Assembly (NCBI RefSeq): GCF_014204525.1
Contig: NZ_JACHLP010000003.1
Coordinates: 62,001-126,000, forward strand
Direction: 5' to 3'
DNA: 64,000 nucleotides
Origin: Roseateles oligotrophus
Lineage (GTDB): Bacteria > Pseudomonadota > Gammaproteobacteria > Burkholderiales > Burkholderiaceae_C
Part shown: one piece after another, positions 1,097 to 32,302 of the stretch
How the letters are laid out: each line of letters begins with the position of its first letter
How positions within the stretch are numbered: position 1 is the stretch's first letter
Position numbers and translations under genes: made by a program
The notes under the pieces: generated by a model
The model's input: only the letters and a program-made list of their open reading frames with translations
Databases searched by the model: none
What the model was told of the DNA's origin: nothing

Positions 1097-2095
1097 ATGA
1101 ACTCAAAACCCAGTCGTCTCGTTGTGCTGCTGGCCTACCCGGGCTGCCAATCGCTGGATGTGAGCGGGCCCTGGGAGGTGTTCAGCAAGGCCGCCGCCCA
1201 TGCCGCCGACCTGAACGGTGCCGGGCCACCGGCCTACCGCCTGCAGCTGGCCTCGCCGCTGGGCGGCCCGGTGCGCTGCAACTCGGGCCTGCAATGGGCG
1301 GACTCCACCGCCCTCGCCCGCCTGCGCGGCCCGCTGGACACGGTGCTGGTGGTGGGCGGCGATGCCGGCGCCTTCGAGCCCGGCGGCGCGGCCCATGGCC
1401 TGCTGCCCTGGCTGCGGCGCAAGGCGCCCGAGGTGCGCCGCATGGGCAGCGTCTGCACCGGTGCTTTTGCGTTGGCGGCGGCCGGCCTGCTGCAGGGGCG
1501 GCGCGCCACCACGCACTGGCATTCCTGTGCCGAGCTGGCGCTCAAATACCCGGGTATTCGGGTGGAGCATGACGCCATCTTCGTGGCCGACCCGCCGCTC
1601 TACAGCTCGGCCGGCATCACCGCCGGTATCGATCTGGCCCTGGCCCTGGTGGAGGATGATCTGGGCCAGGCCGTGGCGCTGGCGGTGGCGCGCGAGCTGG
1701 TGCTGTATCTGCGCCGGCCCGGCGGGCAATCGCAGTTCTCGGCCGGCTTGCAGGCCCAGGCCAGAGCCTCGGACCGTTTCCAGGCCTTGCTGGCCTGGAT
1801 GCAGGAACACCCGGCGGCCGATCTGAGCGTGGGCGAGTTGGCCGCGCGCATGGCCTTGAGCGAGCGCCATTTCGCCCGCCAGTTCCAGCAGCAAACGGGG
1901 TGTACGCCGGCCCGCTTCGTCGCGGCCCTGCGCCTGGAGCGGGCCAAACACCATCTGGAGCAGACCCGCTGGCCGCTGGAGCGGGTGGCGCAGAAAGCCG
2001 GCTTCGGCTCGGTGGACAGCCTGCAGCGCAGCCTGCGCCAGCAGGCCGGCATCACGCCCGAGCAGTACCGCCAGCGCTTTGCGCGGCTGGCTTAG
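1097..2095 (+). CDS. GlxA-family transcriptional regulator (DJ-1/PfpI + AraC HTH)
   Basis: Predicted DNA-binding regulator of about 332 residues. The N-terminal half is a DJ-1/PfpI-type domain with the conserved GlxA segment SVCTGAFALAAAGLL followed by GRRATTHW. The C-terminal 100 residues form the double helix-turn-helix of AraC proteins (LSVGELAARMALSERHFAR and a second helix pair ending PEQYRQRF). An in-frame ATG at 1076 would add seven residues but lies inside the palindrome at 1059-1080, so the ATG at 1097 is preferred; no strong ribosome site decides it. GlxA-type regulators often act next to transporters or detoxification genes, which fits the divergent MFS gene. Its stop overlaps that of the convergent S41 protease gene by 4 bp. 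Confidence 0.88.
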   Translation: MNSKPSRLVVLLAYPGCQSLDVSGPWEVFSKAAAHAADLNGAGPPAYRLQLASPLGGPVRCNSGLQWADSTALARLRGPLDTVLVVGGDAGAFEPGGAAHGLLPWLRRKAPEVRRMGSVCTGAFALAAAGLLQGRRATTHWHSCAELALKYPGIRVEHDAIFVADPPLYSSAGITAGIDLALALVEDDLGQAVALAVARELVLYLRRPGGQSQFSAGLQAQARASDRFQALLAWMQEHPAADLSVGELAARMALSERHFARQFQQQTGCTPARFVAALRLERAKHHLEQTRWPLERVAQKAGFGSVDSLQRSLRQQAGITPEQYRQRFARLA

Positions 2096-3699
2096 CGTGG
2101 CAGGTGGAAAGCATTGCTGCGCACCGGCGAGCGCTTCAACTCCAGCGGCACGCCGCCCTCAGCCGAGCGCTTGACGCTGAAGCCCTTGGCCAGTTGTGGT
2201 GGGCAGACCCCGTTGATGCGGTGTTGCAGGGCTGCGGCCAGCATGGCTTCTTGCGGGGCACCCAGGGCGTTGCCGAGGTCGTCGGCCACCAGGCAACCGG
2301 GCACGCCGGTGGGGCCGCTGCCGGCGGGCACAAAGCCGTCGGAATAATCGCCAAAACCCTTGGCATTGACGCCGCCAAACTCGATCGGGAAATAGCTCAT
2401 GCCGCAGTTGTCCTTGGCGACGAAGCCGTAAGGCTTGCCGCAGGTCTTGCCGCCGATCAGGATCACCTCGACGTCCACCCCGCGCAAGCCGTTGATGAAG
2501 GCCTCGCTGGCCGAGCAGGTGCCGCTCTGCGCCAGCACATAGACGCGCTTGAGGTTCAGGCTGGGCAGGGGCTGCTCCAGCGTGCATTTGTAATTGGCGT
2601 CCAGGAGGCAGGACTGGTTGAAGAAGGCGTAAGAGAAGTTGTCTTTCTGGCGGCGGCTGTTGTAGCGGCTGGTCTCGAAGATTTTGTTCGCGGTCTGGGC
2701 CGAGCCCGCCACCATATAGGCCAGCTCGCTGGCCATGAAGAGCAGGCCGCCGCCGTTGTAGCGCAGGTCCACCACCAAATCAGACACGCCGGCTTGCTGG
2801 AAGCTGTTGATGGCCGCGATCAGCTGGGCCTCGCCCTTGGCGATGTGGTCGTTGAAGACCATGTATCCGACTCGCTTGCCATCCATCCCGGTCAGCACCT
2901 GGCTCAGCGGCACGGGGACCTTCTCCACCTCGGCGCTGAGCAGGCTGGTGTTGATGGCCTGGCCCAGGCCATTGCCGCGAGTGAAGGAGAACACAAAGCT
3001 CTTGCCCACGGCATCCGGGCTCAAAGCGTCGTTCAGCGTCACCAGGCCGGCGCTGTCATTGGTGTCGGCCGACACGCCGTTGACCGTAGCCAAGGTGTCG
3101 CCGCGCATCAGGCCGGCGCGTGAGGCCGGGCTGTTGGCGGCCACCGCGGCAATGCGGATCTGGCGCGGCGGCGTGCGCGAGCCCATGGTCCATTCGATGC
3201 CGAAACCGGCATCTACACCCGCCCGGGTCTCCTGATCCCATTTGGCCGTCGGGAGGGTGAAGCTGAAGCGATCGCGCTGGGCGCCGCTGGCCGTGCGTGC
3301 GGGCGTCAGCAAGGCGTCGAAATAGGCCTCCAGCGAGGCCTGCACATTACCGGCATTGCTATAGCTGGCCTCAGCGGGATTGACCACGGGCACCTCGTCG
3401 CGCCAGAGATAGGCTTCGTCGAAATAACTGCGCATCCACTGCTTCTCGACGCTCAGGCTGCCCACCCGCGAGGCCTGGGGCGCCAGGCTGTTTTCGGGCG
3501 CGCATTGCTGGGCATAAACGCTGCTGGGCTGCAGGCTGGCCGGTGGCAAGGGGCTGGGGGCCGGAGCGGGCGCAGGCGCGGGCTCGGGGCCGAACTTGGG
3601 CGTGCCGGCGTCCCCACCGCCACCACCGCAGGCCAGCAGCAAGAGGCTGGCGCTCAGCGCGGCAATGGTGGCCAAGGGCGAAGGGCAAACTGATCTCAT
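2092..3699 (-). CDS. S41-family C-terminal-processing-type protease, lipoprotein
   Basis: A 535-residue predicted secreted serine protease. It opens with a lipoprotein signal peptide (hydrophobic stretch then LLLLACGGGG, lipid Cys at about residue 24) and a Pro/Ala-rich linker. A PDZ-like segment follows (ANSPASRAGLMRGDTLATVNG), then the S41 core with DLRYNGGGLL and the Ser region GTCSASEAFINGLRG. A downstream Lys lies in GGKTCGKPYGF, consistent with the Ser-Lys dyad of the family. It probably acts at the inner face of the outer membrane or in the periplasm. It lies downstream of the NodB-caspase-TPR gene on the same strand after a 150-bp gap, so both being part of one envelope-related unit is plausible but unproven. 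Confidence 0.88.
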   Translation of the reverse strand: MRSVCPSPLATIAALSASLLLLACGGGGGDAGTPKFGPEPAPAPAPAPSPLPPASLQPSSVYAQQCAPENSLAPQASRVGSLSVEKQWMRSYFDEAYLWRDEVPVVNPAEASYSNAGNVQASLEAYFDALLTPARTASGAQRDRFSFTLPTAKWDQETRAGVDAGFGIEWTMGSRTPPRQIRIAAVAANSPASRAGLMRGDTLATVNGVSADTNDSAGLVTLNDALSPDAVGKSFVFSFTRGNGLGQAINTSLLSAEVEKVPVPLSQVLTGMDGKRVGYMVFNDHIAKGEAQLIAAINSFQQAGVSDLVVDLRYNGGGLLFMASELAYMVAGSAQTANKIFETSRYNSRRQKDNFSYAFFNQSCLLDANYKCTLEQPLPSLNLKRVYVLAQSGTCSASEAFINGLRGVDVEVILIGGKTCGKPYGFVAKDNCGMSYFPIEFGGVNAKGFGDYSDGFVPAGSGPTGVPGCLVADDLGNALGAPQEAMLAAALQHRINGVCPPQLAKGFSVKRSAEGGVPLELKRSPVRSNAFHLPR

Positions 3700-3849
3700 G
3701 CATTCCTCCTAAAACGGGCGGTTCTTGGGGCGCCTCGCGAACAATTCTTTTTTTTAGAACAAAGGCCTGCTGCCAAACGGGGAGACGTTTTTACACCCGC
3801 TGCGCGGCCTGGCCGGCCAGATTCCAGGGTAAATATCGCCGGCCGTCGA

Positions 3850-6597
3850 TCAATCGCCCGCCAGTTTCTGCTTGGCATAGGCCGCGCCCGGTCCGTTGGG
3901 CAGCAGGGCCAGATAGGTGCTGTAGGCTTTTTTCGCGCCTTCGGCATCGCCGCTCCTGGCCCGGGCGTCGCCCAGATTGAGGTAGGCGATGGCGCGCGAG
4001 CGGTCCATCTGGATGGCGTTCTCGAACCAGCGCGCGGCCTCCTTGAACTTGTCCTGCTTGTAGAAGACAAAGCCCAGATTGTTGGCGGCCAGCGCGAAGT
4101 CGGGGCGCAGCTTCAAGGCCTCGGTGAACTCGCGCTCGGCCTCAAGGTAGCGCTTTTCCTTGAAGTGCTGCAGGCCGCGGTCATTGGCGCGCTGGGCCAG
4201 CTGGCGCATGGAGCTGGGCATGGCGGCCGGCGTGACCAGTTTCTGGTCCTGGCCCTGCAAGTCCTTCAGGACCACGGTGGTGCTGACGGGCAGTTGGGCC
4301 GGCTTGTCGCCACCGGCCGCGGCCTGCGGCGGCGCGGCCACGGCATCGAGCTTGCCGTTCAGGGCGATGGCGTCGCTGGGCAGTTGCGAGGTCTGGGCGC
4401 TGATGAATTCGTCGTTGGCGGGCAGCTCAAAAACAAAGTCCCCGCCCTCCGATCCCGGCAGGCTGCCAAAGGCCGGCGTCTGCCGCGAGACGGCCGAGAC
4501 GGCCGGCCCCACATAGGCTGCCAGCTCGGTGGCGGTGATCAGGCCGTCGCCGTTCAGATCGCCCTTGCCGGCCAGGCCTTGCAGCAGGGTCCAGGTGAAG
4601 ACGGAATGGCCGTTCGGCCCGCCGTCGGCCACCAGTTGGTCGGCACCGCCGGCGGTCAGCATCTGGCGGCCGATGCGGCGGGCGTTGTCGCGCAGGAAGT
4701 TGGCCGAACCGCCGCCGCGCGTCAGGCCCAGGCCGCTGTAGCAGGCGTCCATGATGAAGAGCGCATGCTTGGCCGTCAGGCTCTCGGCGATGTTCTGCAG
4801 CTCGGTCATGGGGATGGCGTCGGTGGCGATCTTGCCGGGGTCGGAGTCCACCGGGATGATGTAGCCCAGGCTGCGGCCCGAGCTGAGCTGCAGGGTCGCG
4901 CCATGGCCGGCGAAGAAGACCAGCAGGCGGTCGTTCTTCTTCATGCCGCTATGCGCCAGCTTGTCGTGGAAGGCGCCCAGAATGCCCATGCGGGTGGCGT
5001 CCTGGTTGTCCAGGCTGATGACACGTTCGGGCGCGAAGCCGAACTTCTGGATCAGGGTCTCGCGCATGGCCTGGGCGTCGCGCACGGCGTACTGCAGCTT
5101 GGGCCATTTGGCGTAGTCGTTGATGCCGATGACGATGGCCCAGGAGTCGGCATAAGCCGGCGTCGCGACGGCAGCCGCGGGTGGCGCCTCGCGCTTGACG
5201 CTCTTGAACTTGGCGCCGTCCCAGCCGGCGAACTGATAGCCCTGGGCGCTGAGCTTTTCCAGGATCAGGGGCAGGGCCTTGACGGTGCGCTCGTGGATGT
5301 CGTGGAAGAGGATGATGCCGCGGCCCTCCTTCTCCACCGTCTTCAGCACCCGCTCGGCGATGGAGCTGGGCACCGGGTCGGCCCAGTCCATGGAATCGAT
5401 ATTCCACATCACCGAGCGCAGCTTGGCCTGGCCCAGGATCTCCATGCCCTCGGCGTTACGGGCGCCGTAGGGGAAGCGGAAGATGGGCGAGCGGCGCTTG
5501 TCCACCGCCTGCAAGAGGCTGTCGGTGCCGAGGATCTCCTGCTTCAGCGCATCGCCCGTGCGCTTGGACAGCTGGGCATGGGTGAGGCTGTGGTTGCCGA
5601 TGGCGTGTCCCTCGTCCAGCAAGCCCTGGCTGATCTTGGCCAGGCCGCCCAGCTGGGGCTTGCCTTGCGCATCGAGCCGGCCCAGATTGCTGCCCACCTG
5701 GAAGAACACGGCCGGCGCGCCGTACTGCTTGAGGATGGCGGTGATCTCCTCGGTATAGCTGCGGTGCGGGCCGTCGTCGAAGGTCAGCACGATGGTTTTG
5801 GGCGGCAGCTCCTTGCCAAAGACCTCGGCGTTTTCGCCCTCCTCCGAGGCGCTGGCCTTGGCCGTGGGCGGCAGGGGGTAGGGCGTGACGACGCCGTAGT
5901 CCTTCAGGATCTGCTCGCGGCTCAGGCTCTTCTTCAGCTGGGCGACATAGTCCTCCCACTTCTCGCGCTTGAGCTCGATGGCGCGGCTGCCCTCGAAGCG
6001 GCCGAAGATGCGCTGGATCTCCTTGTCGTAATTGCGCTCGATCTCGGCCAAGGCGTCCAGGTCCTCGCTGATGCGCTTGTGCAGCTTGATGGCCGGCAGG
6101 GTGGAATCCTGGGCAATATCGGTCTTGAGGCTGCGCAGCACTTCCACAAAGGCCAGACGGTCGGCGTCGAAGAGCTGGGCATCGCTCTCCATATAGTCCA
6201 GCAGGCCGGCGATCACGGCCAGGCGCTGGGCCTCACCGCCCTGGATCAAGCTGCGCAAGCGTTCTTCCAGCGCCAGCACCCGGGCCTGGTTCTCGTGGAA
6301 CAAGGCCTGGCCCACGGGCTTGGCGCGCTCGGCCACCTCGGGGCCAGCCTTGGCCTCGTCGGCAAACAGCACGATGATTTTTCGCTGCGCCTGCACCAGG
6401 GCGCGGGCCTGCTCCAGCAAAGGGGTCAAGACCTGAGCCTCGGCGCCCGAGGCACTGGCGGCGCTGGCGGCGACGGCCTCGGGGGCCTGAGCGCGGCCAG
6501 CCTTGGGCTGCAGGAATAAATGCCAGGCGCCGGCGCCCAGGCTGAACGTGGCCACGGTGGCCAGGGCGGCAATCAGAGTCTTTTTCTTGGCGAGCAT
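3850..6597 (-). CDS. Membrane-anchored NodB polysaccharide deacetylase - caspase (C14) - TPR fusion
   Basis: A 915-residue multidomain protein. Residues 8-28 form a single N-terminal hydrophobic anchor, and residues 55-235 are helical and charged (coiled-coil-like). Residues 265-465 form a complete NodB deacetylase domain: TFDDGP at 272-277, HSLTH at 336-340, RFPYGARN near 374, and the IILFHDIHERT motif near 428. Residues 484-700 form a caspase-like C14 domain with catalytic His565 (FFAGHG) and Cys619 (IMDACYSG). An EF-hand-type loop follows at 680-691 (D-x-N-x-D-G-x-I-x-x-x-E). The last 115 residues read as tetratricopeptide repeats. Combining a polysaccharide deacetylase and a caspase in one chain is unusual. 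Expected location is the periplasm, anchored to the inner membrane. Substrates are unknown. Confidence 0.9.
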   Translation of the reverse strand: MLAKKKTLIAALATVATFSLGAGAWHLFLQPKAGRAQAPEAVAASAASASGAEAQVLTPLLEQARALVQAQRKIIVLFADEAKAGPEVAERAKPVGQALFHENQARVLALEERLRSLIQGGEAQRLAVIAGLLDYMESDAQLFDADRLAFVEVLRSLKTDIAQDSTLPAIKLHKRISEDLDALAEIERNYDKEIQRIFGRFEGSRAIELKREKWEDYVAQLKKSLSREQILKDYGVVTPYPLPPTAKASASEEGENAEVFGKELPPKTIVLTFDDGPHRSYTEEITAILKQYGAPAVFFQVGSNLGRLDAQGKPQLGGLAKISQGLLDEGHAIGNHSLTHAQLSKRTGDALKQEILGTDSLLQAVDKRRSPIFRFPYGARNAEGMEILGQAKLRSVMWNIDSMDWADPVPSSIAERVLKTVEKEGRGIILFHDIHERTVKALPLILEKLSAQGYQFAGWDGAKFKSVKREAPPAAAVATPAYADSWAIVIGINDYAKWPKLQYAVRDAQAMRETLIQKFGFAPERVISLDNQDATRMGILGAFHDKLAHSGMKKNDRLLVFFAGHGATLQLSSGRSLGYIIPVDSDPGKIATDAIPMTELQNIAESLTAKHALFIMDACYSGLGLTRGGGSANFLRDNARRIGRQMLTAGGADQLVADGGPNGHSVFTWTLLQGLAGKGDLNGDGLITATELAAYVGPAVSAVSRQTPAFGSLPGSEGGDFVFELPANDEFISAQTSQLPSDAIALNGKLDAVAAPPQAAAGGDKPAQLPVSTTVVLKDLQGQDQKLVTPAAMPSSMRQLAQRANDRGLQHFKEKRYLEAEREFTEALKLRPDFALAANNLGFVFYKQDKFKEAARWFENAIQMDRSRAIAYLNLGDARARSGDAEGAKKAYSTYLALLPNGPGAAYAKQKLAGD

Positions 6598-6676
6598 GCG
6601 GGCGGGATCTGCGGCGAGCGCTTCAATTCAAACCTCGTCATCATCGCCGCAAGTCGGCGCTAAATTTTGCCGCCAC

Positions 6677-7561
6677 TCAAGAACTTGCCAGCGGCTTGCG
6701 CGCCGCCGCCAGGCTCTCGGCCATCTGATTGAACATGGCCTCCTGCAAGGCCAGCTTCTTGCGGCCTTCGGAGCGTTTCTTGGACGGCATGGCCTCGATG
6801 TCGATGAAGGGCGCGGCCAGGCTGGGCAGCTGGTAATTGCCGTCGGGGCGGGCCTGCGCCTCCATCTCCGTCCACATCTGGTCGTAATTGGAGCTGATGT
6901 GCCAGCGCCGCCAGAGATTGATGCTGATGCGGTTGACATTGCTCACCAGCAGCAGCTGCGGGCAGCCCAGCAGATGGGCAAAGTGCCGCGCCGCCAGCAC
7001 CAGCAGGCCGGCCGGCCGGGTGCTGAAAAGGTCGCGGGTGGCCTCGCGCACCATCTCGCGGGCGGCCTCGGTGGCCTTGCCCTGCAGGCGGCCCAGCATC
7101 AGGCAGGGCTCGCCGTCCTGGCGGAAGAACACCAGGGAGGCGGCAAAGAGGTACTCACCCTTGTAGACCAGGCGCAGGCACAGCTCGCCCTCGCGGTGGC
7201 CTTCGTGAATGGCGCTCAGCTCCAGGCGCATGGGCGCGCCGGACTTGCACTCCAGCTGCGCCAGCAGCACGGGCTCTTGCGAGGCCTGGCGCACCCAGTC
7301 GGCCAGGCCGAATTCGCTCAGGAAGCGATAGTGGGCGATCAGCACATCGACCCGCCTGGCGCAGCTCAGGCGGGTGGACAGATAGGGCCGGTAGATCTTG
7401 CTGTGGGCGAAGGGGAACTGGCCCAGCTTGTCGTGCAGGATATCGCTCTCGCGGATGAACTGCGTCCAGCGCTGCGTCTGCCTGGGGTGCAGCAGGCTGC
7501 CGATCAGGATCTTGGCGCGGTCCTTGGGTTTCATGGCGACCCGGGCAGGTTTGGATTTCAT
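6677..7561 (-). CDS. VirK/YbjX-family (DUF535) protein
   Basis: Predicted 294-residue cytoplasmic protein that resembles the VirK/YbjX (DUF535) family. Family-like stretches include FAHSKIYRPYLSTRLSCARR near the N-terminus, then HREGELCLRLVYKG and LGRLQGKATEAAREMVREAT. Near the C-terminus is LLLVSNVNRISINLWRR. Family members are linked to envelope stress and virulence in enterobacteria, but the biochemical role is unknown. The ATG at 7561 gives a sensible N-terminus; an internal ATG at 7534 is possible. Longer upstream readings lack family similarity. It lies 79 bp upstream of the NodB-caspase gene on the same strand and is divergent from the M16 peptidase gene. Confidence 0.75.
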   Translation of the reverse strand: MKSKPARVAMKPKDRAKILIGSLLHPRQTQRWTQFIRESDILHDKLGQFPFAHSKIYRPYLSTRLSCARRVDVLIAHYRFLSEFGLADWVRQASQEPVLLAQLECKSGAPMRLELSAIHEGHREGELCLRLVYKGEYLFAASLVFFRQDGEPCLMLGRLQGKATEAAREMVREATRDLFSTRPAGLLVLAARHFAHLLGCPQLLLVSNVNRISINLWRRWHISSNYDQMWTEMEAQARPDGNYQLPSLAAPFIDIEAMPSKKRSEGRKKLALQEAMFNQMAESLAAARKPLASS

Positions 7562-7739
7562 GGGCAGAGGGCGGCGCAGGCGGAAGGCTTGGGGGGGGTC
7601 CAAGTGAATTGGGCGATAGGCAGTCAATCTGCAGGTAGCGGATTGTCTCTGAGTTTTCCGCTGCCCAAGCATTGCCGGGCAGCGCGCGCTGCTACCCTTG
7701 CGCGCCTGCATCCCCAAGAACGCCCGGAAGCCAAGAACA

Positions 7740-10487
7740 ATGCACCTGATCCCCGCGCTGCGCCTCACGCTCACCCTGAGCTTGCTCGCCCCGGCCCTCA
7801 ACCTCCAAGCCCAGACCAAGCCCGCTGTGCAAGCCGGCTTGGCCGCCTTGCACAGCGTCGAAGGCATCAGCGAATACCGCCTGCCCAACGGCCTGCAGGT
7901 ACTGCTGGCGCCCGACCCCTCCAAGCCCAGCACCACGGTCAATATGACCTACCGGGTGGGCTCCAAGCACGAGAACTACGGCGAGACGGGCATGGCCCAT
8001 CTGCTGGAGCATCTGGTCTTCAAGGGCTCGCCCCGCCACCCCAATCCCTGGGCCGAGTTCAGCCGCCGCGGCCTCAATGCCAATGGCACGACGGACCTGG
8101 ACCGCACCAATTACTTCGCCAGCTTCGCCGCCGAGCCCGAGAACCTGCGCTGGTATCTGGCCTGGCAGGCCGACGCCATGGTCAACAGCCGCATCGCCCG
8201 CCGCGACCTGGCCACCGAGATGACGGTGGTGCGCAACGAGATGGAGATCGGCGAAAACAAGCCCGATAACATCTTGTTCGAGCGCACTCTGGCCGCCATG
8301 TACCAGTGGCACAACTACGGCAAGAGCGTGATCGGTGCGCGCGCCGATGTGGAGAATGTGGACATCCCGCGCCTGCAGGCCTTCTACCGCCGCTACTACC
8401 AGCCGGACAACGCCACCCTCATCATCAGCGGCCGCTTCGAAGCCCGGCAGACCCTGGCCTGGGTGCAGCAGAGCTTTGGCGCCATCCCCGCCCCCAAGCG
8501 TCGCCTGCCCAAGTTCTACACCCTGGACCCGGCCCAGGACGGCGAACGCGCCGTCACCGTGCGGCGCAGCGGCGGCGTGGCCAGCCTGACGGCGGCCTAT
8601 CACGTGCCGGCCGGGCCGGCGCCGGACTATGCGGCGATCGAGCTGCTCCGGGGCGTGCTGAGCACGCCGCCCGCCGGCCGTCTGTACCAGCGCCTGGTGG
8701 CCGAAAAAAAGCTGGCCAGCCAGGTCAGCGCCTTCAGCATGCCGCTGGCCGAGCCGGGCTTTCTGCTGCTGGGCGCCGAGCTCAAGGCCGGCGCCGAGCT
8801 GAGCGAGTTGCAGGCCGAGCTGCTGCGCGTGCTGGAACTAGAGCTGGCCAGCGCGCCCATCAGCACGGCCGAGCTGGAGCGCGCCCGCACACGCTGGCTC
8901 AATCGCTGGGAGCAGCAGTTCACCGACGCCGAGCAGGTCGGCCTGGCCCTGTCGGAGAGCGTGGCCCAGGGCGATTGGCGCCTGTTCTTCCAGCTGCGCG
9001 ACCGCGTCAAGGCGCTCAATCTGGCCGATCTGCAGCGGGTGGCGCAAAGCTATCTGCGCCCGGCCAATCGCACCCTGGCCAGCTATCTCCCGACGGCGCA
9101 GCCGCAGCGCGCGCCGGCCCCGCAGCTGCTCGATGCCGGCGCGCAGCTGCGCGACTTCAAGCCCGGCCCGGCGGCCGCCGCCGTGCCGCCCTTCGAGGCC
9201 TCGCCGGCCGAGGTCCAGCGCCTCAGCCAGATCGACCGCCTGGGCAACGGCCTGCGCCTGGCCCTGCTGCCCAAGCCCACCCGCGGCGGGGCGGTGCAAA
9301 ACCTGCTGAGCCTGCAGATGGGCGACGCCCAAAGCCTGCGAGGCCAGGCGGCGGTGGCCGAGCTGGCCGCCGCCCTGCTGGACAAGGGCACGCAAAGCCT
9401 GGACCGGCAAGCCCTGCGCGACCGCATGGACGCGCTGAAGATGGAGCTGCAGATCAGCGCCAGCGCCGAGAACCTGAACCTGGCCTGGAGCACCCGCCGC
9501 CCCCATGCCGAGCAGGCCCTGGCCCTGGTCGCCCAGCTGCTGCGCCAGCCCCGCTTCAGCGCCGACGGCCTGGAAGAGGTGCGCGCCCAGGCCCTGGGCC
9601 AGTTGCAGGCCCAGCGCGACGACCCCGAGGCCCTGGCCGGCAATGCCCTGAACCTGCTGTTTGACGGCGGCGCGGCCTGGCCGCGCTTTGATGTGCGCCA
9701 CGCCCGCAGCTTTGCGGAGATGGAGGCCGATCTGCAGGCCGTCACCCTGGCCCAGGTGCAGGACTTCCAGCGCCGCTTCTACGGCGCCGCCCAGGCCCAG
9801 TTCGCCGCCGTGGGCGACTTCGACGCCCAGGCCCTGCGCCAGGCCGCGGCCCAGGCGCTGGGCGATTGGCACGCCGCCCAGCCCTATGCCCATGCCCCCC
9901 TGCCCTACCGCGCCTTGCCCGGCCAGCGAAGCCAGCTGCTGACGCCCGACAAGCAGAACGCCGTCTTCAACGCCCGCCTGGGCCTGCCCCTCAACGAAGA
10001 CCATGCGGACTATGTCGCGCTCAGCCTGGTCAACCAGATGCTGGGCGGCAGCAGCGACTCGCGGCTGTGGAAGCGCATCCGCGAGCGCGAGGGCCTGTCC
10101 TACAGCGTCTGGTCATTCCTGAGCTGGGGCGAGCAAGACCTGAACAGCAGCTGGCATCTGGGCGCCTTGTTCGCGCCGCAAAACCGCGCCAAGGTCGAAC
10201 AGGCCTTTGACGAGGAACTGGCCCTGGCGCTGAGCCAGGGCTTCAGCGCCCGCGAGCTGCGCGAGGCCCAGCAAGCCATGCTCAGCGACCGCCGCCTGGC
10301 CCGCGCCCAGGACCCGCTGCTGGCCGCCACGCTGGCCCAAAACCTCTTCATGGGCCGCGATGCCCTGCGCTCGCAGGCGGTGGACGAGGCAATCGCCAAG
10401 CTGAGCCTGGAGCAGGTCAATAGCGCCCTGCGCCGCTACCTCAAGCCGGCCGATTTCCAGCGCCTGTGGGTGGGCGACTTCAAGTAA
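7740..10487 (+). CDS. M16-family zinc metallopeptidase (pitrilysin-type), two fused halves
   Basis: A 915-residue predicted periplasmic zinc protease. The chosen ATG has GGAAG upstream at ribosome-site distance and begins a clear signal peptide ending near NLQAQ; an earlier in-frame start would place charged residues before it. The inverted zinc motif HLLEH is at residues 87-91, and the third ligand Glu is at about 167 in VVRNEMEIGE, 76 residues on, as in the family. The second half repeats the M16 fold (LGNGLRLALLPKPTRGG) without an HxxEH motif, so it is the usual non-catalytic partner domain in the same chain. The stop overlaps the convergent LysR gene by 8 bp. Confidence 0.93.
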   Translation: MHLIPALRLTLTLSLLAPALNLQAQTKPAVQAGLAALHSVEGISEYRLPNGLQVLLAPDPSKPSTTVNMTYRVGSKHENYGETGMAHLLEHLVFKGSPRHPNPWAEFSRRGLNANGTTDLDRTNYFASFAAEPENLRWYLAWQADAMVNSRIARRDLATEMTVVRNEMEIGENKPDNILFERTLAAMYQWHNYGKSVIGARADVENVDIPRLQAFYRRYYQPDNATLIISGRFEARQTLAWVQQSFGAIPAPKRRLPKFYTLDPAQDGERAVTVRRSGGVASLTAAYHVPAGPAPDYAAIELLRGVLSTPPAGRLYQRLVAEKKLASQVSAFSMPLAEPGFLLLGAELKAGAELSELQAELLRVLELELASAPISTAELERARTRWLNRWEQQFTDAEQVGLALSESVAQGDWRLFFQLRDRVKALNLADLQRVAQSYLRPANRTLASYLPTAQPQRAPAPQLLDAGAQLRDFKPGPAAAAVPPFEASPAEVQRLSQIDRLGNGLRLALLPKPTRGGAVQNLLSLQMGDAQSLRGQAAVAELAAALLDKGTQSLDRQALRDRMDALKMELQISASAENLNLAWSTRRPHAEQALALVAQLLRQPRFSADGLEEVRAQALGQLQAQRDDPEALAGNALNLLFDGGAAWPRFDVRHARSFAEMEADLQAVTLAQVQDFQRRFYGAAQAQFAAVGDFDAQALRQAAAQALGDWHAAQPYAHAPLPYRALPGQRSQLLTPDKQNAVFNARLGLPLNEDHADYVALSLVNQMLGGSSDSRLWKRIREREGLSYSVWSFLSWGEQDLNSSWHLGALFAPQNRAKVEQAFDEELALALSQGFSARELREAQQAMLSDRRLARAQDPLLAATLAQNLFMGRDALRSQAVDEAIAKLSLEQVNSALRRYLKPADFQRLWVGDFK

Positions 10488-27873: not shown

Positions 27874-29589
27874 CTATTTTGCACCCCGAATGAAGAGTAT
27901 TTTCCCATTGCCAGTTGCATTCAGAGTGTACTCCCCTACTTGTTGGATAGCGCCTTGTCGTGAGGCTTCTATGGCTACTGAATCACGAACAAACTGGGCA
28001 AGTTCCGAAAATTTTATTACTCCGTCATGGTTGTAGTCAGCGTCTCCAGAGAGACCTTTTATTAGGGCCGACGTGAATATGCCGCCATCATTGTATATTG
28101 CCGGCTGATCTTCTGTCCCCGCAACAAGGAAATTTCGGGCCCTACCGGTTGTGTCATTTCGAATGGTGCTTAATGTTTCGAAACTCAAGGACGGTGCCGC
28201 CTGCGCCCCAAGATGTCCTTGCAGCACTAATCCCGAGGCGCATGCGTCAATCGCTACAAGCATGTGCTTTGCTGTAACTGCATCTGTTTGCCGCGTAGAG
28301 AGGTCGCGCATTAAAAATCCTGTTTGCGTTGGCCTGTTTTTATCAAAATCGTAAGTGACTAACACGCCCAGCCCTTCCGAAGTAATGCCGTGCCCACCGA
28401 AATAAAAAAATAGGCGCTCGACCCCACTACTTGCGCCACCTTTCCAGAATTTTTTCAATTCGGCCTCAATAGCCTCAGAAGTTGCATCTTGGTCGTACAA
28501 CTCTGAAATATTCGCGGGGGAAAAACCTAATTCAATCAAAGCTGTGCGCAACTCCCCAGAGCGCTGCCTCATTCTTTTCAACTGAATGAATCCAGTTTTT
28601 CCACGATTCAATTTATCCTTGGTGCGATCATAATCGTCTATTGCAACCAAAATTGCAGCACTTGATTTATATGGCTGAGAAAAAGTTTTAAGCCTTTGAT
28701 CTTCTCTCCAATATAAATATTTTTCTTTCGCGCTTTCAATTATCGCTACTCCAGATTTTATTATTGAAGGCGCCCCCAAGACAATAAGCTCCCGTCGTGA
28801 GGACTTGGCTTGATCGACCGTAATATCCCACCCATTGAGCTTAAGTCCGGCTGCCGTTAGCAAATCCGCAGGCACCTCCTCTTCAAAGATAAGGTCTATA
28901 GTGGGCGAAGGAACTTGCACGGTTTTGGCGTGAGGCGATTCCCCGTTTGCCCCTGTTACCGACGGAGGACTGGCAGGCAATAGGGTTGCAGCAGGGGTGA
29001 CTGATTTGATATTTGAATTAAGTCCATCTCTGAATTGAGTCGATGTACTGACGCCTGCCAATACGTCGACTTTCTCTACCGAAATTGTTGGGGCGACTGT
29101 TATTTTTTTGACTTTGCCACCGAGGAAGCTTTCGCTCCACGAAGCCAAATTATTTTCAAATAGGCTTTTGGAGATTCTTGCATTCCCATCCTTTATTACG
29201 ATTGCGCAAGTACACGAATTGGGGATTGCCGATCTGAGAAGTTGCTGCCGGCAGCCGGCATTGGCCACTTCATCTCTGGCGTTTGAGTAATAATCAATGC
29301 CCGAGCTGATGTTTATTCCTACGCCCACAGCGGGAGGGCATATTTCACTGTTTTTTGATACGGACATGGATATGGTGTATAGCCCATGCGCGGGCAGCCA
29401 CTTATCTCCGCGCTCAGAGGCCACTGATAACTCCCTATATTCACTGGCGCACGCGAGGGAACCATCGGTAAATAATATCCTTTTAACGGAAAGGCATTCT
29501 GATGCCAAGACTGGGCCTGAGCAGGAGATGCTCGCCAGGAAAAAAATTAATACAATAGCGATAGTGCTAAATAATTTTTTATGTCGCAT
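27874..29589 (-). CDS. Secreted caspase-like (C14) protease on AT-rich island
   Basis: A 571-residue protein with a signal peptide (LFSTIAIVLIFFLASIS, probable cleavage near residue 30). An unassigned Cys-containing region follows to about residue 180, then a Ser/Pro-rich linker. The C-terminal caspase domain starts near residue 308 (SSAAILVAIDDYDR) with catalytic His400 (FYFGGHG) and Cys450 (VAIDACASG). A complete EF-hand loop lies at 518-529 (D-x-N-x-D-G-x-I-x-x-x-E). The base composition is far more AT-rich than in neighbouring genes, which suggests recent transfer. The ATG at 29589 is used because it starts the signal peptide. Targets are unknown; a role in defence or cell death is only inference. 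Confidence 0.88.
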   Translation of the reverse strand: MRHKKLFSTIAIVLIFFLASISCSGPVLASECLSVKRILFTDGSLACASEYRELSVASERGDKWLPAHGLYTISMSVSKNSEICPPAVGVGINISSGIDYYSNARDEVANAGCRQQLLRSAIPNSCTCAIVIKDGNARISKSLFENNLASWSESFLGGKVKKITVAPTISVEKVDVLAGVSTSTQFRDGLNSNIKSVTPAATLLPASPPSVTGANGESPHAKTVQVPSPTIDLIFEEEVPADLLTAAGLKLNGWDITVDQAKSSRRELIVLGAPSIIKSGVAIIESAKEKYLYWREDQRLKTFSQPYKSSAAILVAIDDYDRTKDKLNRGKTGFIQLKRMRQRSGELRTALIELGFSPANISELYDQDATSEAIEAELKKFWKGGASSGVERLFFYFGGHGITSEGLGVLVTYDFDKNRPTQTGFLMRDLSTRQTDAVTAKHMLVAIDACASGLVLQGHLGAQAAPSLSFETLSTIRNDTTGRARNFLVAGTEDQPAIYNDGGIFTSALIKGLSGDADYNHDGVIKFSELAQFVRDSVAIEASRQGAIQQVGEYTLNATGNGKILFIRGAK

Positions 29590-30001
29590 CGAATCCACCT
29601 CGCGAAGATTTATGAAAAAATAGTGCGCAGAGAGAGGTCTCAAAATATGCACTATTGATGAGTCAACCACACGGCTAGTACGTAGTGCGACGTCGGTAGT
29701 GACGAGAATCACGGAAGGCGATGTCACCTAATGGCAGCCCAAAGGGTGAATTTTTCAGACTGAGTTGAGATAGGTTACCAGTCAGAAAATAGAACATTTT
29801 TGAAAAAAATATTGTTGACAGGCCCTTCTTGTCTTCCAATTTGCAATTGGAGCTTAATTGGATCGATTCCACCGTTTTTGGTTGACGTTGCATTTTTGCA
29901 CCAGCAAACCTGATAGAAGTCGCGAGGGAAAACCCTTGATCAATAAATTTTCTTTTTTCTCAACTATAGTGGATGCTCATCGATAATTGCAGGGGCTGAT
30001 G
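29590..30001. other. AT-rich gene-free gap between divergent island genes
   Basis: This 412-bp stretch separates the minus-strand caspase gene from the plus-strand membrane-protein gene and must hold both promoters. It is AT-rich with several A/T runs. A 72-codon minus-strand frame at 29675-29893 has no recognisable similarity or good start context and was not called. Confidence 0.6.
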
Positions 30002-30710: not shown

Positions 30711-30841
30711 ACGCCCCCGAACAGGCGCAGCCCCATCCGCTTCGCCCGCATGCACGGCATGCCCACCACCTGACGCGTCAACCGAGAATTACCTTGCGAA
30801 TTGACTTGTAAGCCCTTGATTCTTTTGTGGCACTCACCGCC

Positions 30842-32302
30842 ATGCAAGGTGTACCCCAAGTTGACGGACAGGTCATCGATGCGAGCACGCCCGCCAAGCC
30901 GGACACGCTGGCGCAATGCCATGCGGTGATCGCGCTGCTGGCCCTGGAGGTGGAGGGCTTGCGGCTGCAACTGGCCTCACAAGCGCAGGCACTGGCGGCC
31001 CTGCAAGAGCGGCTCAAGCTGGACTCCAAGAACTCCTCCAAGCCACCCTCATCGGACGGCCCGGCCAGTCCCAACCGGGCTCAGCGCCGCGCCAGTGGCC
31101 GCAAGCGTGGGGCGCAGCTGGGCCACAAGGGCAGCGCCCGGGCCATGCTGGATGAAGCGGAGGTTGACCAGATCATCGACTGCGCACCGGCCGAGCTCTG
31201 CGACTGCGGCGCACCGGTCACCGTGGTGGCCGAGGAGCCCATTCGCCACCAGGTGTTCGATGTGCCGCCCGTCAAGGCGCAGGTGCATGAATACCGCCGT
31301 TATGCCGGACGTTGCACGGGCTGCGGCAAGGCGCACAGGGCGGCGCTGCCTGCGGGCGTGCCCAGTGGTCAGATCGGCCCGCGAGCCCTGGCGCTGGTGG
31401 GCACGCTGGGGACGCACTACCACCTCACGCAGAACAAGATTCGCGACCTGCTGGCCCGGGTTTTGGGGGTGGACTTCTGTGTCGGCGCCATCTCGCAGGC
31501 GCACGGCAAGATGGCGCAAACGCTCAAAGCCCCGGCCGCGCAGATCGGCCAGTATGTGCGCCAAGCGCCTGTCAAACACATGGACGAGACGCGCTACCCG
31601 CGCGAGGGCGCGGGCAACTGGGCGTGGGCCGTACTCACGCCCGAGGCGGTGTGCTACAGCCTGCTGCCTTCACGGGCGCGCTATGTGGCCACCAGCCTGG
31701 TGGGTGAGTCGTTCACCGGCATCTTGGTGTCGGATCGCTATGCGGTCTACGACTATGTGAATGTCCACAAGCGCCAAGTCTGCTGGGCACATTTGCTGCG
31801 CGACTTCACCCGCATCGCCCAGCGCGACGGCCTGGCCGGACAAATCGGGCGCGGCCTGCTGGGGGCGGGGTTCGTGCTGTTTCGCTGGCACACGCTGGGC
31901 AAGACGGCCGCGCAGTTTGATCCGCTGCGCCGGCGCATCAAACGCTTGCTGGTGCAAGGCAGCGGCCTGACCCAATGCACGCGCACGGCCAACACCTGTG
32001 CCAATCTGCTCACGCTGTGGCCGGCACTGTGGACGTTTATCGACAACCCCGCCGTGCCGCCCACCAATAACGCGGCCGAGCAGGCGCTACGTGCCCTGGT
32101 ACTCAAGCGCAAGATCTCCGGCCCGACCCGATCCCGGCGCGGCGATGAGTTCCTCGCCCATGGCTTCAGCGTCTACGAGACCTGTCGCCGCCAGGGCCGA
32201 GACCTGTGGGACTATATGCATCAAGCCGTGGTGGCCTGGATCAACAAGACCACCGCCCCGAGTTTGTTGCCGCCTGGAGCGGTCCTTGCACCTTCAGGGT
32301 AG
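30842..32302 (+). CDS. IS66-family transposase (TnpC type)
   Basis: Predicted DDE transposase of 486 residues from the ATG at 30842; a GTG at 30827 would add five. The order is the TnpC pattern: an N-terminal coiled coil (LALEVEGLRLQLASQAQAL), the SKNSSKPPSSDG block, a zinc-ribbon region (CDCGAP and CTGCGK), and the DDE core with Asp in KHMDETRY and VSDRYAVYDY and Glu in NNAAEQALRALVLKRKIS. No frameshift or internal stop is seen and both element ends are intact, so it may be active. Insertion appears to have occurred inside a pre-existing palindromic site. Confidence 0.93.
   Translation: MQGVPQVDGQVIDASTPAKPDTLAQCHAVIALLALEVEGLRLQLASQAQALAALQERLKLDSKNSSKPPSSDGPASPNRAQRRASGRKRGAQLGHKGSARAMLDEAEVDQIIDCAPAELCDCGAPVTVVAEEPIRHQVFDVPPVKAQVHEYRRYAGRCTGCGKAHRAALPAGVPSGQIGPRALALVGTLGTHYHLTQNKIRDLLARVLGVDFCVGAISQAHGKMAQTLKAPAAQIGQYVRQAPVKHMDETRYPREGAGNWAWAVLTPEAVCYSLLPSRARYVATSLVGESFTGILVSDRYAVYDYVNVHKRQVCWAHLLRDFTRIAQRDGLAGQIGRGLLGAGFVLFRWHTLGKTAAQFDPLRRRIKRLLVQGSGLTQCTRTANTCANLLTLWPALWTFIDNPAVPPTNNAAEQALRALVLKRKISGPTRSRRGDEFLAHGFSVYETCRRQGRDLWDYMHQAVVAWINKTTAPSLLPPGAVLAPSG

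Follow-up and report, generated by a model that had tools for sequence, protein, structure and literature searches.

A NodB-caspase-TPR protein of Roseateles oligotrophus from the Xanthomonas-type metacaspase family, with an EF-hand-like loop inside its caspase domain

Caspase-like proteases that share one chain with a polysaccharide deacetylase have already been described in bacteria. The available passages of Asplund-Samuelsson et al. 2012 (PMC3501461) recognise a conserved Xanthomonas-type metacaspase in which a polysaccharide deacetylase (NodB) is followed by the metacaspase and then, usually, by tetratricopeptide repeat (TPR) domains; they list 17 sequences from Xanthomonas, Xylella, Stenotrophomonas and two Acidobacteria, all with a Cys-His dyad, and give trmE as an operon neighbour in gammaproteobacteria. 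Here we describe a gene of this kind at positions 3850..6597 (minus strand) of a 64,000-nucleotide stretch of Roseateles oligotrophus (assembly GCF_014204525.1, contig NZ_JACHLP010000003.1, positions 62,001 to 126,000), hereafter the window, to which all coordinates refer. Judged from its sequence, the encoded 915-residue protein is a member of the described family, sharing the order PF01522, caspase and TPR, the Cys-His dyad, a similar length and homology over nearly the whole chain (62% identity to locus L044 of Xanthomonas floridensis). Eight intact Xanthomonadaceae loci are 61-62% identical to it over ~840-860 residues, and three of them fall inside the proteobacterial part of the tree described below. 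The architecture is therefore not new. In the open-access full-text literature, PMC3501461 was the sole paper recognised on it, most other matches being judged without their full text, and the word deacetylase is absent from the available part of PMC4933709.

The open reading frame (ORF) is complete, begins with ATG and, from the ORF listing, Pfam matches and its relatives, is a real gene; an ORF-calling artefact was considered as its source and rejected. Pfam places Polysacc_deac_1 (PF01522, NodB) at residues 262-394 (E 5.1e-26), Peptidase_C14 (PF00656, caspase) at residues 486-700 (E 8.5e-21) and TPR families at ~801-912 (PF07719, E 5e-13; PF13414 and others), so that the two enzymes which the initial annotation had placed in a single chain are both significant. 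NodB-type and caspase-type NCBIfam models also match, below their own curated cut-offs. From the N-terminus, the chain comprises a hydrophobic helix (residues 5-27; 6517..6585), probably an uncleaved membrane anchor; a conserved all-helical region (43-233; 5899..6471); the NodB or CE4 deacetylase domain (262-457; 5227..5814), which has solved PgdA/PdaC-type relatives; the caspase-like (C14) protease domain (483-725; 4423..5151); and the TPRs (801-912; 3862..4197), all on the minus strand. The helical region is possibly an undescribed domain: residues 40-233 have no Pfam match better than E 0.19, residues 51-240 show a median 51% identity over 33 relatives, and block means of the predicted local distance difference test (pLDDT) in the full-length model are 73-91 for residues 51-190 and 30-87 beyond. 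As that model was poor over the caspase part, fold searches used a caspase-only model (pLDDT 82.9, predicted template modelling score 0.83), which shows a caspase fold and, with a PF00656 match over the curated cut-off, places the protein in C14.

Both active sites appear complete. The NodB part carries TFDDGP at residues 272-277 and HSLTH at 336-340, and the caspase part has the catalytic His565 (4903..4905) in FAGHG and the catalytic Cys619 (4741..4743), the sole Cys of the protein, in DACYSG. CE4 enzymes are marked by the motifs DD, HxxxH, RxPY, DxxDW and LxH, and the window's protein has both the NodB/CE4 profile match and the full metal and catalytic residue set. Of 80 loci retained from a scan of species genomes, 34 (L034-L067) match the chain at length, while L068-L113 match only within residues 96-486, at and around the NodB part. 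Thirty-two of the long-matching loci, aligned with the window copy and the copies of the same-genus genomes G004 and G009 (35 rows; L056 and L066 were excluded for broken frames), are invariant at D274, D275, H336, H340, R374, Y377, D401, W405 and H432 in the NodB part and at D507, H565, D617, C619, R627, R641, R644, D680 and E691 beyond it. His565 is also constant in all rows of a 64-row alignment centred on the caspase part, whose members are 48-85% identical to the window's protein. TFDDGP-, HSxxH-, AGHG-, DACYSG- and EF-loop-like patterns are all present in 120/120 of the best relatives, well above what chance would give, though in a biased sample taken by score from the 2680 found in a protein search at E up to 0.001. 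Measured against the G004 copy (95.8% identical over 911 codons), the ratio of nonsynonymous to synonymous substitution (dN/dS) is 0.032 for NodB, 0.070 for C14, 0.025 for the TPRs, 0.16 for the helical region and 0.21 for the first 50 residues, values that indicate purifying selection on the protein. On low dN/dS and intact catalytic residues, decay of one enzyme domain was rejected, in agreement with the initial annotation, which had read full motif sets and no decay in either enzyme.

The caspase domain contains a putative calcium-binding element. An EF-hand is recognised by a 12-residue loop consensus between two helices. Residues 680-691 (4525..4560; DLNGDGLITATE) follow the strict loop consensus in 57 of the 64 rows, with D680 and E691 in all 64, and in the caspase model they join helices 666-678 and 689-703 as a helix-loop-helix inside the caspase domain; the packing check proposed in the initial annotation is thereby answered, the loop being an integral part of the domain in this model. 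From the order of strands and helices and the usual caspase nomenclature, the loop is assigned to the connection between alpha4 and alpha5, which by the caspase topology would put its turn at the end of the fold distant from the active site. Of 44 other aligned C14 rows, one has the strict loop, namely the window's second caspase, and a few show degenerate traces of it; the 44 rows include two for the same place (L015 and L145), four fragments (L120, L134, L136 and L138), a NodB match (L016) and two without the dyad (L142 and L146), and L010 was dropped for stops in frame. The alignment replaced a regular-expression test for the loop in other C14 proteins, in which the dyad was found in only 11 of 45 loci and the loop in none. 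The initial annotation had proposed calcium control as in metacaspases; the conserved loop stands, but calcium control is not supported, and in eukaryotic metacaspases the calcium site is located elsewhere and is not known to be an EF-hand. If periplasmic, the loop would probably be loaded with calcium from its surroundings and play a structural part, a staple being favoured over a switch because the turn is distant from the active site and the periplasm is rich in calcium.

A second conserved detail lies directly behind the catalytic Cys, where DACYSG runs into GLxLTR(G/A) or a close variant. The Arg of this motif, Arg627 (4717..4719), is present in 35/35 and 63/64 rows and starts a Gly/Ser-rich loop of variable length, residues 624-632 having a pLDDT under 50 in the caspase model. 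The processing loop of caspases and metacaspases falls in the interval after the catalytic Cys, and sequence and model together make Arg627 a candidate P1 residue of self-cleavage. Nearby, Arg641 and Arg644 occur in all 64 rows. The P1 preference of the domain is predicted to be Arg/Lys, not Asp, from D507 and D617, acidic residues at the putative S1 positions.

The long-matching loci come from Comamonadaceae, Oxalobacteraceae, Sphaerotilaceae, Xanthomonadaceae (NCBI Lysobacteraceae) and Acidobacteriota, together with a Myxococcaceae metagenome-assembled genome (MAG), a deltaproteobacterial MAG and a Saccharospirillaceae genome. Counting the genome of the window in each case, the gene is found in 3 of 18 genomes of the genus, 27 of 299 of the family (E 1e-100; two copies with internal stops) and 2 of 274 of the class (E 1e-60), at most three candidates per genome being scored in the latter two scans. 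In the tree, the window and G004 copies stand among Rhodoferax/Polaromonas/Sulfuricella-type copies, while that of the same-genus G009 groups with Pelomonas, Rubrivivax and Rhizobacter; a single monophyletic group of the genus copies was rejected (p-AU 5e-37, 20-row tree). The distribution is thus patchy and, as read from the sequences, involves horizontal transfer.

The genomic site agrees with this pattern. In the same-genus genome G008 the order is kinase, MBL-fold, LysR, M16 and DUF535 genes, then directly AraC/DJ-1, and the window has the caspase gene and an S41 peptidase gene between the last two; this two-gene segment (2096..6676, minus strand) is absent from the matching site of G008. 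The site of G015 is likewise empty, but there the AraC gene is also missing. Scanned separately, the two edges of the inserted segment showed no repeats hinting at an entry route. The gene is an accessory module gained in this lineage, and its role is therefore probably dispensable or niche-specific.

We consider it rather probable that the protein is an inner-membrane, periplasmic deacetylase-protease with partner binding by its TPRs. Along the chain, the anchor would be followed by a helical stalk, the CE4 deacetylase, the Arg/Lys caspase with its built-in calcium-binding loop and the C-terminal TPRs. NodB would take N-acetyl groups off a periplasmic glycan, most plausibly the N-acetylglucosamine (GlcNAc) of peptidoglycan; the TPRs would hold a partner or substrate and present an envelope protein to the protease for cutting after Arg/Lys, perhaps once the chain has cleaved itself at Arg627. 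In the 680-691 loop, calcium would staple the second half of the caspase fold, in a structural capacity and not as a switch. To our knowledge, few direct joins of cell-wall deacetylation and regulated proteolysis exist, and the window's protein would be one if both enzymes work. A far bolder version, which we hold to be a long shot, would make it a calcium-loaded periplasmic caspase with an integral EF-like loop, cleaving first its own chain at Arg627 and subsequently an envelope protein after Arg/Lys, and fused to a peptidoglycan deacetylase as a proteolytic checkpoint on cell-wall modification and spread horizontally among Proteobacteria and Acidobacteriota.

Several points weigh against a periplasmic deacetylase-protease. 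Its location, substrates, P1 preference, self-cleavage, calcium binding and the coupling of its two activities are deduced from sequence and models, and the full-length model is poor (24 similar sequences, pLDDT 61), so that the relative placement of the domains is not readable from it. A membrane-anchored periplasmic placement, as given by the initial annotation, is plausible from the N-terminal hydrophobic helix (Kyte-Doolittle peak 1.53 over residues 7-25, without a lipobox, and helical in a low-confidence part of the full-length model) and from the catalytic Cys, which is the only Cys in 107 of the best 120 relatives. However, the N-terminus could be a cleaved signal peptide, and a single Cys is seen in only 15 of the 35 diverse rows (the others have 2 to 9, some in over-long ORFs); because of these two counts, the hint of a periplasmic protein is strong among near relatives of the window's protein and loses force in more distant ones. 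The conservation of Arg627 may have a structural cause. The calcium loop is proposed from its consensus, the conservation of that consensus and the caspase model; no EF-hand family of Pfam matches the protein at E up to 0.1, and we therefore name the loop EF-hand-like and do not file the protein as an EF-hand protein. At the insertion site, loss in the sister genomes instead of gain is possible, although it does not explain the tree, because of which gain is favoured over loss in G008.

An alternative is that the caspase executes cell death, killing the stressed cell as proposed for the relative of Xanthomonas campestris pv. glycines, with the deacetylase helping to open the wall. The available text of PMC3501461 ties that relative to programmed cell death through cross-reaction with caspase and PARP antibodies and through caspase-like activity, but this support is antibody-based and the enzyme observed was of 55 kDa, whereas family members are of ~100 kDa. 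In the PADLOC defence library the window's protein is matched by a generic 'caspase' model (E 2e-19), yet the match is confined to positions 3-130 of 453, the window's other caspase is matched as well, and the S41 and DUF535 proteins have no PADLOC match. Moreover, a protease with the predicted Arg/Lys P1 would not itself account for activity on Asp substrates (DEVD-type), and at its likely periplasmic site it would have no access to the cytoplasm. We regard a death executor as improbable. A better, if still unlikely, case can be made for two uncoupled enzymes, merely co-localised by a TPR scaffold, with the caspase mainly processing its own chain and, for example, freeing the TPR part. This fits the position of the invariant Arg627, next to the catalytic Cys in a flexible loop. 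Close relatives of the caspase part also exist without a NodB annotation, such as P0155 (334 residues, with its own N-terminal hydrophobic stretch), so that the protease may be able to work by itself; many of the remaining short rows are fragments. Against it, proteins from Acidobacteriota to Burkholderiales retain the order NodB-C14-TPR, and both catalytic sets are intact in 35/35 rows, which points to a need for both activities in the same chain.

A further possibility, that the flanking genes form an operon and a system with the caspase gene, is very unlikely indeed. As initially annotated, the gene is flanked on its own strand by an S41 peptidase gene (2092-3699; lipobox-like N-terminus by eye) and by DUF535 (PF04393, E 6e-57; 6677-7942), the 'VirK-like' neighbour. 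A scan for signals gave no promoters (0.5 expected) and three terminators (4.5 expected), counts that favour neither view. The common strand, the gaps of 150 and 79 bp, the retention of all three genes in the 96%-identical G004 and the joint absence of the caspase and S41 genes at the G008 site, which may mean that they arrived together, would be compatible with such a system. However, conservation of these neighbours, proposed as a check, was not found: an S41 relative occurs in one of 53 distinct loci (56 in all), that of G004, where alone among the relatives' loci DUF535 also adjoins the caspase gene, a few of these loci having little flank on one side. The S41 gene has a strong Shine-Dalgarno-like sequence of its own, and DUF535 belongs to an older neighbourhood, forming a divergent pair with the same M16 gene in the window, G008 and G015, of which G008 and G015 have no caspase gene; in G010 DUF535 occurs without M16, and in G004 another stretch separates the two. 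The single S41 locus and the G008 site led us to reject S41 and DUF535 as a partner system. Other neighbours are found elsewhere, in sets that are confined to subgroups and none of which spans the whole NodB-caspase-TPR family. In Xanthomonadaceae, all eight intact loci have dnaA-like, rnpA-like and yidC-like genes no more than 4 kb away, and six of the eight a trmE-like gene (names read from N-termini), a clustering with which the trmE of PMC3501461 agrees; a PurB-like gene, also read from its N-terminus, lies within 4 kb in five loci, from at least one Burkholderiaceae MAG and four same-family genomes, and four Janthinobacterium loci share a small neighbourhood. Separately, three Janthinobacterium loci (L038, L047 and L049) have a DUF535 match 6-10 kb from their caspase-protein copy, probably by chance.

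At least four C14 caspases are encoded in the genome of the window: two lie in the window itself and the remainder on contigs C12 and C13. The window's second caspase (27874-29727, minus strand; 617 residues, PF00656 E 3e-8) has an EF-like loop of its own (DYNHDGVIKFSE). The GC content around it is low (46% at 28-30 kb) and an IS66 transposase (30827-32302, plus strand) is encoded nearby, so that its region is probably acquired DNA. The NodB part also has a paralogue in the same genome (L002, G000:C13:93390-94193), 40% identical over residues 200-465, whose open frame of 426 residues is too short for caspase and TPR parts.

Set beside known enzymes, the NodB part has the full motif set of CE4 deacetylases such as PgdA and PdaC, and its best match in the PDB is the peptidoglycan GlcNAc deacetylase 2c1g (E 2e-26), but it differs from them in being part of a protease-TPR chain. 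The caspase part is ~20% identical to plant metacaspases 4 and 9 and the MALT1 paracaspase, with plant metacaspase 4 as its best, though weak, PDB sequence match (E 0.0006), and is distinguished from these by its fusion to NodB and TPRs. With prokaryotic orthocaspases it shares the caspase fold, the His-Cys dyad and acidic residues at the presumed S1 positions. EF-hand motifs are reported as extra domains in seven archaeal orthocaspases in the available part of PMC6426788, whereas in the window's protein the EF-like loop is built into the caspase fold itself, where it links two helices of the second half. Compared with the Xanthomonas-type metacaspase described in PMC3501461, the window's gene is found in Burkholderiales and does not stand beside trmE; as far as it was available, the main text of that paper mentions neither EF-hand nor calcium, and an invariant Arg after the catalytic Cys is absent from its passages. 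Published in 2012, the architecture thus has, in the passages available, no more than immunological hints on its function, although the family occurs widely and shows strict conservation. The value of the present comparison lies less in the discovery of a fusion than in two details, an EF-like loop integral to the fold and an invariant residue, Arg627, which make calcium dependence and self-cleavage directly testable.
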